This document shows positions 34,628-38,169 of a stretch of 64,000 bases of DNA, piece by piece (position 1 is the stretch's first letter; the number at the start of each line of letters is the position of its first letter). The stretch covers positions 1-64,000 of the forward strand of contig CALMVI010000156.1 of NCBI GenBank assembly GCA_937873095.1. The letters are read 5' to 3'. The notes beneath the pieces are model-generated. The model was not told where the DNA came from. It made no database searches and worked only from the letters and a program-made list of their open reading frames with translations. The position numbers and the translations under genes are program-made. Source of the DNA: an uncultured Acetobacteraceae bacterium (lineage in GTDB: Bacteria > Pseudomonadota > Alphaproteobacteria > Acetobacterales > Acetobacteraceae).

Positions 34628-34936
34628 ATGCATTTCAAAGTTGCTTCGGAATCCTCCAGGACCGTCACGACAGGCTGGCTTGTGGCTTTCGCGATCTTGG
34701 CAACATCTTTCGTCGGCGCAAGTGCTGCTTCCCTGGCGAAAGCTGGCAGCGCCGTAACTGCTTCCGCCGACGTCGACCCCAGCATATTTCATCACTGGCC
34801 ACACGCCGCGTCGACGGCCGAAACGGAGATAGATCCCACGATATTTCATCATTGGCCGCATCTGACGGTTGCGACGCTTGATGATGACGATGCCATCCCT
34901 GATATCTTCCACCACTGGCCACACGACGCGCATTAA
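34628..34936 (+). CDS. Small exported protein with three IFHHWPH repeats
   Basis: 102 aa from MHFKVASESSRTVTTGWLVAFAILATSFVGASA; repeats VDPSIFHHWPH, IDPTIFHHWPH, IPDIFHHWPH at 34784, 34841, 34904. Confidence 0.75.
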   Translation: MHFKVASESSRTVTTGWLVAFAILATSFVGASAASLAKAGSAVTASADVDPSIFHHWPHAASTAETEIDPTIFHHWPHLTVATLDDDDAIPDIFHHWPHDAH

Positions 34937-35041
34937 AGGAACAGATGGGATTTGCAGTCCTATATTAAAAAATGAGCGTTATTCGATATGCGAATGTCCA
35001 ATCTAGATGATCGGTGGACATAGGACTCGGCGCATCAAGCT

Positions 35042-35067
35042 CACCTCTCGCCGAAAGGCGGGAGGTG
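35042..35067. terminator. Hairpin CACCTCTCGCC-gaaa-GGCGGGAGGTG between the HHWPH gene and the GGDEF gene
   Basis: 11 bp stem with one G-U pair and a GAAA loop; function (terminator vs attenuator) inferred. Confidence 0.55.
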
Positions 35068-35160
35068 TGTTGATCGACATGTGAGCACTTGCTTGTCGGG
35101 CATGTGGACCACTATGTTGGCGAGGTAGAACTCGCTGTCTAAACAGGCCTGGAGTCACCA

Positions 35161-38100
35161 GTGAGTCGCGAGCGCACGTCAACCACGCCACGTTCTCTCG
35201 CCAGCATCTCGGCCCTGATCAGTTTCATCATTGCTTTGGCGATCGCTTGGCAGCCGCATGCTGCCGCGGAGCAATTGGCGTTCCGGGGCTACAGCAAAGC
35301 TGACGGGCTTACGAACGCCTGGGCTTCGTGCCTGGTTCAGGATGCATCGGGTTTCATCCTGGTCTGCACGGAGCATGGACTGTTCTCGTACGACGGACGC
35401 CGGTTTTCCAACCTGGGGCCACGGCAGGGACTGCCAGACGGCGGCTTTCTCCACGCGCTGACCCGGGACAGCAGGAACCGGATAGTGCTGCGGTTCCCGC
35501 ACAGCATTTTCGTTTCAGACCAGCCGATAAACGGCCATGACCCGCCCGGGAGCCTGATGTTCCACGCAGCGCAATCGGCATCTCCCATAGAGGATGACGA
35601 GCGCGGTGATATCGTGCCGTGGCGGGATGGTGCGGTCTTCGCAGCCGACGGCCGACTTTATTTCGTGCGTTATGACGATCAGATGGCAAAGCCGGTCGTA
35701 ACGCTGGCGGGCGGCGCGCTCGCTAGGCAAAGCTTCACCTTGCAAGACGCAACGCCACTGGCCGTACAGGGCGCGACCCTATGGGCCGCGCGGACCGACG
35801 GCGCGATCTGCGGACTGAGCGATGCGAAAACATCGTGTTTCGGAGCCTTGGAGGGTCTGCCGAACGACAATTGGGCCGCTCTGCTCGTCACAAGGAACGG
35901 CCATGTCCTGGCTCGGTCGCCGAGCCACCTGGCCGACATCAACCCTGCATCGGGCACGATCGACGTCAGCAACCTGCCAACTCAGGGCGGACGCTACGCA
36001 AATTATCCGCATCGACTGGTTCTTGTCGAAGACCCGACAGGTCAGATCCTGACACAATCCTCAGACGGCCTGATAATCGGCCGGGCTTCCCACTGGCAAG
36101 CGCTGAGCGAGCGTAACGGGCTGCCAACGGCTCCGGTCTTATCGGTGCTGTTCGACCGTGACAAAGGCCTTTGGCTGGGAGTGCTCGGGAAGGGGGTGCT
36201 GAGAGATCTCGGCTATGGGTTATGGGAAAACCTCGACCATCGTGACGGATTGGCCAATGACGTTTTGTGGCAGATGTCGCGCGAGCCGAACGGACCTTTG
36301 TGGATCGCGAACGATAACGGGGTCGACGCGATCGGCCCATTGAAGCCCCTCTTCGTCCACCGCCATTTCGACAGACCCGCGTTTGCGGTAACGACGGATG
36401 ATTTTGGCCATCTCTGGCGTTCCGAGGGATCAAGCGGCATCGCCTGCATCGCGCTCGGCACTGGCCACGTGGACCATTTTACCTTGCCGGCAGTCAACAA
36501 GATACTCCACGGTGCCAAGTCCAGCCTGTGGTTCCTGACTGAACGAGGACTGTACCTTGTTTCGGACTCGGCACGTCCGACCGCTCCGAAGCTTTTCTCC
36601 GCTTCTGTCGATCCAGTCAGTGCAGCGACAGCCGACGCCGACGGAAGTTTGTGGATGATCCGCAAAAACCGGCTCGTCCACCTGGATCTGGACGGCGCAG
36701 AAAAGGTCGTTCAAACAACATGGCCGCAAGGCGACTTTCAGCCGTTAACTTTGGCGATGTCCAAGGCAGGGGCTTTGTGGATCGGTGGAGCGGGTGGGGG
36801 ATTATACCGGCTGACACTCGTCGATGGTCGAGTGACTGCGATGGCGCAATTCGGCTCGCCTGATATTGTTTCGAACACCATCGTCTCGCTTTTGGTCGAT
36901 AGCCGCCAATGGGTTTGGGTTGGAACCGATAACGGCGTTTCCGTGTTCGACGGAAAACGGTGGGTCTCGGCCAACACCGATAGTGGTCTCATCTGGGATG
37001 ACCTGGATCAGGGAAGCCTTTACGAGGACGCGGACGGCTCGATGTGGTTGGGCACAAGTCAAGGCTTGTCCCACCTCCTGAACCCGGCTCGGCTGTTCCA
37101 GCAGAGTTCTTTGCGACCGGTGATAACCGCGGTTCATCTGGGGCAGGACGACGTCCAGGAGCGGGTGGTTCCGTATTCCCGTGAACCGCTCGAAATCCAG
37201 TTCGGCACGCTGAACCTCCAGGCCGACGGCGTCATACGATTCCGCTACAAGCTTGACGGCGTCGACAAAGGCTGGGCCGAGACGGCAAGCGGCCTCGCGC
37301 GCTATCCATCTCTGCCGGCGGGACGTCACATGTTTTCAGTCGCCGCCTACAATCCACTCACGCATGAGGTATCGCCTCCTGTGACGTTGCAGCTCCGTAT
37401 GCGCAGGCCTTGGTGGTTTTCCTGGCCCTTGGTTGCGCTATACGGCTTTGCAGCGACAGGGGCAGCGTATGGCCTTCTTCGTCTGCGAATACGGCTGCTT
37501 CTCCGACAGAAGTCTCTACTGCAACGCGAGGTCGACCTGCAAACTCAGGAAATCCGGAGGGCGCAGGCGGCTTTGCAGGTTCTGGCCACCCAGGACAGTC
37601 TGACGAAGCTGTTGACACGAGGCGAGATACAGTCGCGGCTGGACCGTGTGTTGGCCCAAGACAATCGCAGTCAAACCTTTACGATAGGTCTGCTGGACAT
37701 CGATCATTTCAAGAGGATAAACGACCGTTTCGGACATCTGATCGGTGACGAGATTCTGCGAGAGATCGGGTGCCGGCTGCGCCAGGCAATGGGACCGGAC
37801 GACTACGCGGGACGATATGGCGGCGAGGAGGTACTCGTTGTCGTTCCTGGCGACGGCAAACTCGGGGTCGAAAAGATCTATTCACTCAACGATGCGGTAT
37901 GCAGCCGGCTGTTCCCGGTCGAGAAACAATTCATATTGGTGACCTGCAGCATCGGCGTCACACACGCGCTGCCGCATGACGACTGGAAAACGGTCATCGA
38001 TCGTGCAGACCAGGCGCTCTACAAAGCCAAGGCGCTGGGTCGTGATCGGATCGTGGTTTCAGCCGCCATGGTACCTGTCGAAGGAGGCCGGGCGTCATCC

Positions 38101-38169
38101 TCGACTGAGAGACGCCTTGAACAACCGCCCGCGACACCCTGGAACAGAGCGACGAGCCATCGCTCCTGA
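35161..38169 (+). CDS. Two-component-regulator-propeller (Reg_prop/Y_Y_Y) sensor diguanylate cyclase
   Basis: Repeated Reg_prop-like motifs (GLFSYDGRRFSNLG, GLANDVLWQM, GVSVFDGKRWVSANTDSGL), Y_Y_Y-like FRYKLDGVDKGWAE, TM, GGDEF domain with RYGGEEVLVVV. Confidence 0.92.
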   Translation: MSRERTSTTPRSLASISALISFIIALAIAWQPHAAAEQLAFRGYSKADGLTNAWASCLVQDASGFILVCTEHGLFSYDGRRFSNLGPRQGLPDGGFLHALTRDSRNRIVLRFPHSIFVSDQPINGHDPPGSLMFHAAQSASPIEDDERGDIVPWRDGAVFAADGRLYFVRYDDQMAKPVVTLAGGALARQSFTLQDATPLAVQGATLWAARTDGAICGLSDAKTSCFGALEGLPNDNWAALLVTRNGHVLARSPSHLADINPASGTIDVSNLPTQGGRYANYPHRLVLVEDPTGQILTQSSDGLIIGRASHWQALSERNGLPTAPVLSVLFDRDKGLWLGVLGKGVLRDLGYGLWENLDHRDGLANDVLWQMSREPNGPLWIANDNGVDAIGPLKPLFVHRHFDRPAFAVTTDDFGHLWRSEGSSGIACIALGTGHVDHFTLPAVNKILHGAKSSLWFLTERGLYLVSDSARPTAPKLFSASVDPVSAATADADGSLWMIRKNRLVHLDLDGAEKVVQTTWPQGDFQPLTLAMSKAGALWIGGAGGGLYRLTLVDGRVTAMAQFGSPDIVSNTIVSLLVDSRQWVWVGTDNGVSVFDGKRWVSANTDSGLIWDDLDQGSLYEDADGSMWLGTSQGLSHLLNPARLFQQSSLRPVITAVHLGQDDVQERVVPYSREPLEIQFGTLNLQADGVIRFRYKLDGVDKGWAETASGLARYPSLPAGRHMFSVAAYNPLTHEVSPPVTLQLRMRRPWWFSWPLVALYGFAATGAAYGLLRLRIRLLLRQKSLLQREVDLQTQEIRRAQAALQVLATQDSLTKLLTRGEIQSRLDRVLAQDNRSQTFTIGLLDIDHFKRINDRFGHLIGDEILREIGCRLRQAMGPDDYAGRYGGEEVLVVVPGDGKLGVEKIYSLNDAVCSRLFPVEKQFILVTCSIGVTHALPHDDWKTVIDRADQALYKAKALGRDRIVVSAAMVPVEGGRASSSTERRLEQPPATPWNRATSHRS

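Follow-up and report, generated by a model that had tools for sequence, protein, structure and literature searches.

Among the closest described relatives of the receptor considered here are the Bacteroides hybrid two-component sensors BT4663, BT3049, and BT4673, the periplasmic parts of which combine a double propeller with a Y_Y_Y domain. BT4663 senses heparin and heparan sulphate; that is, the fold is known to bind an oligosaccharide ligand. The output of these sensors is a kinase or a one-component regulator, and we know of no co-encoded peptide gene that forms part of a BT4663-type system. To our knowledge, most diguanylate cyclase sensor domains have no known ligand, and reports of exported linear peptide pheromones from Gram-negative bacteria are rare. 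In Xanthomonas, the diguanylate cyclases GdpX2 and GdpX3 display a Reg_prop/Y_Y_Y–GGDEF domain string; their sensor domains are described as being of unknown function, and no peptide partner is described (PMC6637768).

The locus analyzed here lies in the window, i.e., the whole 64,000-nucleotide stretch of DNA from an uncultured Acetobacteraceae bacterium. It encodes a diguanylate cyclase (DGC) with the same domain string as GdpX2 and GdpX3, preceded by a small gene for a secreted repeat protein, referred to below as the precursor. The two genes have the appearance of a peptide signal and its receptor, a pair so far undescribed, in acetic-acid bacteria. No family for the precursor and no cassette of exported peptide plus DGC were found in the family libraries or the open-licence literature; a description elsewhere is possible.

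The precursor and the propeller DGC of the window

The small gene extends from position 34,628 to 34,936 on the + strand, with an ATG start and a TAA stop, and encodes 102 residues. Its N-terminus, which an earlier note on this DNA had likened to a signal peptide, scores as one by a home-made rule (3.92); the export signal covers about 31 residues (34,628–34,720, + strand), the cleavage site being approximate. The three IFHHWPH copies of the earlier note are present in the reading frame, with cores spaced 19 and 21 residues apart. The repeats, all on the + strand, are VDPSIFHHWPH (34,772–34,804), IDPTIFHHWPH (34,829–34,861), and AIPDIFHHWPH (34,892–34,924), i.e., three copies of (V/I)DPxIFHHWPH, the third beginning AIPD-. 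The three 21-nt cores have the same translation, and all 6 of their 6 variable sites are synonymous. About 19% of random changes in those codons are synonymous, which gives a chance of ~4e-5 for this outcome if substitutions were unconstrained. Purifying selection acts on the repeat core, as had been argued from the differing codons. The precursor matches no Pfam or NCBIfam model at the curated cut-off, in line with the claim that no named family carries the repeat. The weak Pfam matches of related repeat proteins, such as Stannin and EGF, are repeat-sum artefacts in which no single stretch passes.

The DGC gene, claimed to follow on the same strand, does so at 35,161–38,169 (+ strand), and its product of 1002 residues is the proposed receptor. 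The intergenic segment contains a strong hairpin with a GAAA loop (35,031–35,076, + strand; ViennaRNA −28.6 kcal/mol for the 55-nt stretch 35,031–35,085). A terminator was rejected because no T-run follows the hairpin; it is possibly a transcript attenuator or stabiliser.

The DGC exceeds the Pfam cut-offs for Reg_prop (4e-16; 57.4 bits, cut-off 20.4), Y_Y_Y (4e-6; 27.1 bits, cut-off 26.6), and GGDEF (5e-34; 117.8 bits, cut-off 23.8). The AlphaFold model, with a mean pLDDT of 83.6, places an N-terminal membrane helix before a long all-beta region, followed by a membrane helix running into a long helix and the GGDEF domain. The periplasmic sensor, with two propellers and the Y_Y_Y domain, spans 35,263–37,410 (+ strand) and matches the folds of PDB entries 4a2l/4a2m, 3v9f, 3ott, and 3va6. 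Its closest solved structures, by fold and by sequence, are the periplasmic domains of BT4663, BT3049, and BT4673. Entries 4a2l and 4a2m are the BT4663 periplasmic domain; against chain D of 4a2l, Foldseek gives a TM-score of 0.77 by target length and an E value of 5e-38. The GGDEF domain (37,585–38,049, + strand) has the active site GRYGGEE and is without an RxxD I-site. The GGEE motif is preserved, with invariant catalytic columns among 24 DGC homologues, and nearly all members lack the RxxD product-inhibition site. Conservation between lineages is lowest in the N-terminal half of the propeller region.

Occurrence of the pair and variety of its repeats

A whole-protein search with the window precursor in 60 related genomes gave no significant match elsewhere (best 0.0016), overall similarity failing because the repeat is so variable. 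When 85,462 species genomes were scanned with a degenerate back-translation, one relative emerged, in Acetobacteraceae bacterium KSS8. The KSS8 precursor has a signal peptide followed by seven near-identical copies of EIDPNIFHHWPTTGVA, and lies directly 5′ of a window-type DGC on the same strand. With a DNA pattern for FHHWP, clusters were found, among 398 family genomes, only in the window’s genome, in KSS8, and in Lichenicola cladoniae PAMC 26569 (G275). In the last, the pair occurs on two plasmids with four repeat copies each, and the small gene is annotated “hypothetical protein”. Thus, the motif search suggested in the earlier note places the repeat directly 5′ of the DGC in both KSS8 and L. 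cladoniae, and the window precursor, with homologues at loci L009, L040, and L041, is no orphan.

The twin Lichenicola cassettes (L115, NZ_CP053710.1; L116, NZ_CP053709.1) are nearly identical, with 1 synonymous and 4 nonsynonymous differences, and are too alike for dN/dS. IS elements lie just 3′ of both, which suggests mobility. On the Kozakia baliensis plasmid pKB16680_2 (L117, 1686–5087), a homologous DGC appears shortened beside an IS5 element.

For a wider survey, the DGC sequence alone was used for searching and the region upstream of each match was inspected. A small secreted protein is encoded directly upstream at 27 of 41 assessable family DGC loci; 16 of these precursors are multi-copy, with 2–12 tandem repeats, and 11 hold a single copy. 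In the automated control, 2 of 207 ordinary genes from these genomes were positive, plus 0/58 in another set. Both positives are spurious, one being a Gly-rich lipoprotein and the other an overlap with a real enzyme. Small ORFs with a signal-peptide-like start are by themselves common 5′ of ordinary genes (78/207), so a single-copy case counts only if it is conserved, as in Asaia, or motif-like, as in L049 (NIAHHYPG) and L086 (IDPSVRHRWPD). Outside Asaia, the single-copy cases are weak. The L086 core precedes a second propeller DGC in the window’s own genome (G000:C142; L086, L134).

The repeats differ between lineages, as follows: IFHHWP (3, 7, 4, and 4 copies), ISHHWA (8), SRHEWP (7), VVHHF (2), LRQWPAP (12), YRHGWP (4), NEHRNFRIG (3), RHPSE/D (about 7), TLKDRPT (at least 7, the contig end lying within the array), and, in Asaia, GPRPPxGxxxDPCxxxGxC (1 to 6). 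Repeat type tracks receptor phylogeny. The maximum-likelihood DGC tree unites the carriers of HHW repeats (IFHHW/ISHHW) in a clade with full support, to which SRHEWP is sister; a second clade holds the RHRWP, AHHYP, and VVHHF carriers, a third the LRQWPAP and YRHGWP carriers, and a fourth all GPRP..DPC carriers (Asaia).

These repeats bear on a proposal of the earlier note, namely that the precursor is an exported His/Trp-rich binder of metal or heme, the loading of which is read by the sensor. HHW-type cores do occur in several clades, but repeats at homologous positions lack the His cluster or the Trp (GPRPPAGQKWDPCEMQGAC, NPNTLKDRPT), so binding of this kind is unlikely as a general role; moreover, lineage-specific hypervariability is unexpected for a metal site. 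We consider the proposal highly improbable.

Among 387 alphaproteobacterial genomes, only those of Acetobacteraceae carry DGC homologues at E ≤ 1e-70. Some DGCs lack a precursor. No precursor-like small ORF lies directly upstream of the DGC in genus g67, and none that is convincing accompanies the distant paralogues in G204, G156, and G074. It follows that the receptor fold can function without a precursor or has another ligand. The annotation of Niveispirillum and Sphingomonas plasmids shows no same-strand small gene just upstream of the two DGC homologues there. At L078 (523–2439) and L081 (minus strand, 5′ of the DGC), a secreted protease of the pro-kumamolisin/S53 type (Pfam PF09286) precedes a paralogous propeller DGC-EAL protein, possibly a variant that senses a protease product.

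Divergence and replacement of the pair

When the flanks of 23 loci were compared all-against-all, the DGC was the sole common neighbour outside syntenic housekeeping genes. The pair recurs at many unrelated genomic sites with nothing else in common, and no maturation enzyme, exporter, immunity gene, or dedicated protease is conserved beside it in these flanks. PADLOC gave no match. These results weigh on a second proposal, in which the peptide is polymorphic and either bacteriocin-like or a RiPP, and the DGC acts as its immunity protein or regulator. Multi-copy cores and cassette replacement occur in such systems too, and the Asaia repeat has two Cys. Against these points stand the lack of maturation, export, and immunity genes and of a PADLOC match, and the nature of the partner, a signalling enzyme whose catalytic residues are intact. 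The proposal is improbable, and the RiPP-like reading of the earlier note in particular finds no maturation enzyme common to the loci.

At one chromosomal site, shared by G024, G010, and Asaia, the pair is flanked by MetZ genes with products 82–99% identical, and the precursors are unalike. In Asaia, exactly one such DGC plus precursor is present in 9/9 species examined. DNA identity in the 36 species pairs is 77–96% for the flanks, 46–73% for the precursor, and 53–68% for the sensor; precursor and sensor are hypervariable relative to the flanks in 36/36 pairs. Both partners thus diverge faster than their surroundings at a fixed genomic site.

The sharpest case is A. bogorensis (G173) versus G283, where flanks of 94–99% DNA identity enclose an island of 52–77%; the island begins at the stop codon of the DGC and reaches ~350 bp beyond the 5′ end of the precursor gene. 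In this pair, dS is 2.07 for the sensor and 2.5 for the GGDEF part, against 0.18 for metZ and 0.16 for ApaG. Rapid protein evolution cannot bring synonymous sites to saturation; hence the cassette as a whole was replaced, or has long been kept as a separate allele. The two genes thus moved as one unit, the sharp swap being seen in this one species pair. At the other loci compared closely, nucleotide similarity spans the DGC only.

In genus g67, which has no precursor, DGC and flank identities are 97/97, 95/96, and 82/87, and no divergence island is seen. That is, comparing Asaia with g67, the sensor diverges beyond its flanks only where a precursor is present. The contrast weighs against the view that the precursor is a secreted protein that evolves fast, has some unrelated function, and sits in an operon with the DGC merely through ancestry. 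The DGCs that have no precursor would fit that view; upkeep of the pair at many otherwise dissimilar sites, sensor divergence restricted to precursor carriers, and island edges that coincide with the two genes do not, and we regard it as very improbable indeed.

A proposed peptide ligand for a c-di-GMP receptor

Lineage specificity, co-divergence, and cassette replacement are most simply explained by a ligand and its cognate receptor. We suggest that the cassette probably encodes a hypervariable exported peptide ligand and the periplasmic receptor through which it controls c-di-GMP. The small gene would yield a Sec-exported precursor in which a short peptide, specific to the lineage, occurs once to twelve times; the unit of the window precursor would be ~11 residues, (V/I)DPxIFHHWPH. 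Within the envelope, the precursor is probably cut in its spacers, or else serves intact as a multivalent ligand. The peptide, free or displayed, would bind the periplasmic double propeller of the neighbouring DGC, and binding would raise or lower the activity of the cytoplasmic GGDEF domain. The c-di-GMP output, such as surface life, biofilm, or motility, would then track the level of the cell’s own peptide type, the peptide being a pheromone or an autocrine envelope signal. The suggestion in the earlier note that a multi-copy precursor is sensed by the adjacent propeller thereby gains strong comparative support from the association of the genes, the clade-matched repeats, and joint replacement in Asaia.

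The spacer before a unit holds a motif of the hydrophobic-x-[VLY]-Ala type in 9/11 lineages, where 3 are expected; the motif was chosen after the sequences had been viewed, which makes its P value optimistic. In the spacers of the window precursor itself, this putative cut motif is retained just once. A number of precursors terminate precisely at the border of a unit (..IKLA*, ..TRVA*) or immediately after the core (..IFHHWG*, ..ISHHWA*). Together, the motif and these ends suggest cleavage by a general envelope peptidase. In G104, a gene on the minus strand 5′ of the DGC (L067), adjacent to it and divergent, reads like signal peptidase I (motif SGSMEPSL), which is of interest given that the spacer motif is signal-peptidase-like.

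The borders and ends resemble processing units and so argue against a regulator that stays uncut, in which a multivalent repeat protein cross-links, clusters, or inhibits the DGC sensors, copy number sets avidity, and there is neither free peptide nor cell–cell signalling. Such a regulator would be equally consistent with co-divergence and cassette replacement, and would suit both the lack of a neighbouring protease and a unit number that ranges from 1 to 12 without frameshift. We reckon it unlikely. The sequences fit both release and sharing of the peptide between cells and its retention in the producer’s envelope as an autocrine or multivalent regulator. We put at even chances the broader proposal of a Gram-negative class of peptide pheromones, in which the self-type peptide sets c-di-GMP via a propeller DGC and pherotypes spread by cassette exchange.

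If the ligand–receptor reading is true, peptide-type recognition is tied directly to c-di-GMP, and an entire clade of c-di-GMP receptors gains a candidate ligand that can be put to the test. The cassette would also offer simple peptide–receptor pairs for orthogonal c-di-GMP control. It is found in Asaia, a genus with mosquito symbionts that have already been genetically manipulated (PMC7921796), and in Acetobacteraceae associated with plants and lichens.

Among known systems, the cassette resembles the Gram-positive pherotype loci agr, ComQXPA, and ComCDE, in which a short exported peptide and its membrane receptor are encoded together, the locus is hypervariable, the receptor’s sensor diverges with the ligand, and the locus is replaced as a unit. 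It differs from them in being Gram-negative, in its multi-copy precursor, in having no maturase or transporter beside it, and in a receptor that is a propeller DGC rather than a histidine kinase. In layout, the precursor is like those of the fungal alpha-factor type and of the dikaritins, i.e., a signal peptide and then tandem short peptides with processing spacers, which are putative here. Unlike these, it is bacterial, has a hydrophobic-Ala spacer motif in place of a Kex2 site, and is linked to c-di-GMP instead of a GPCR.
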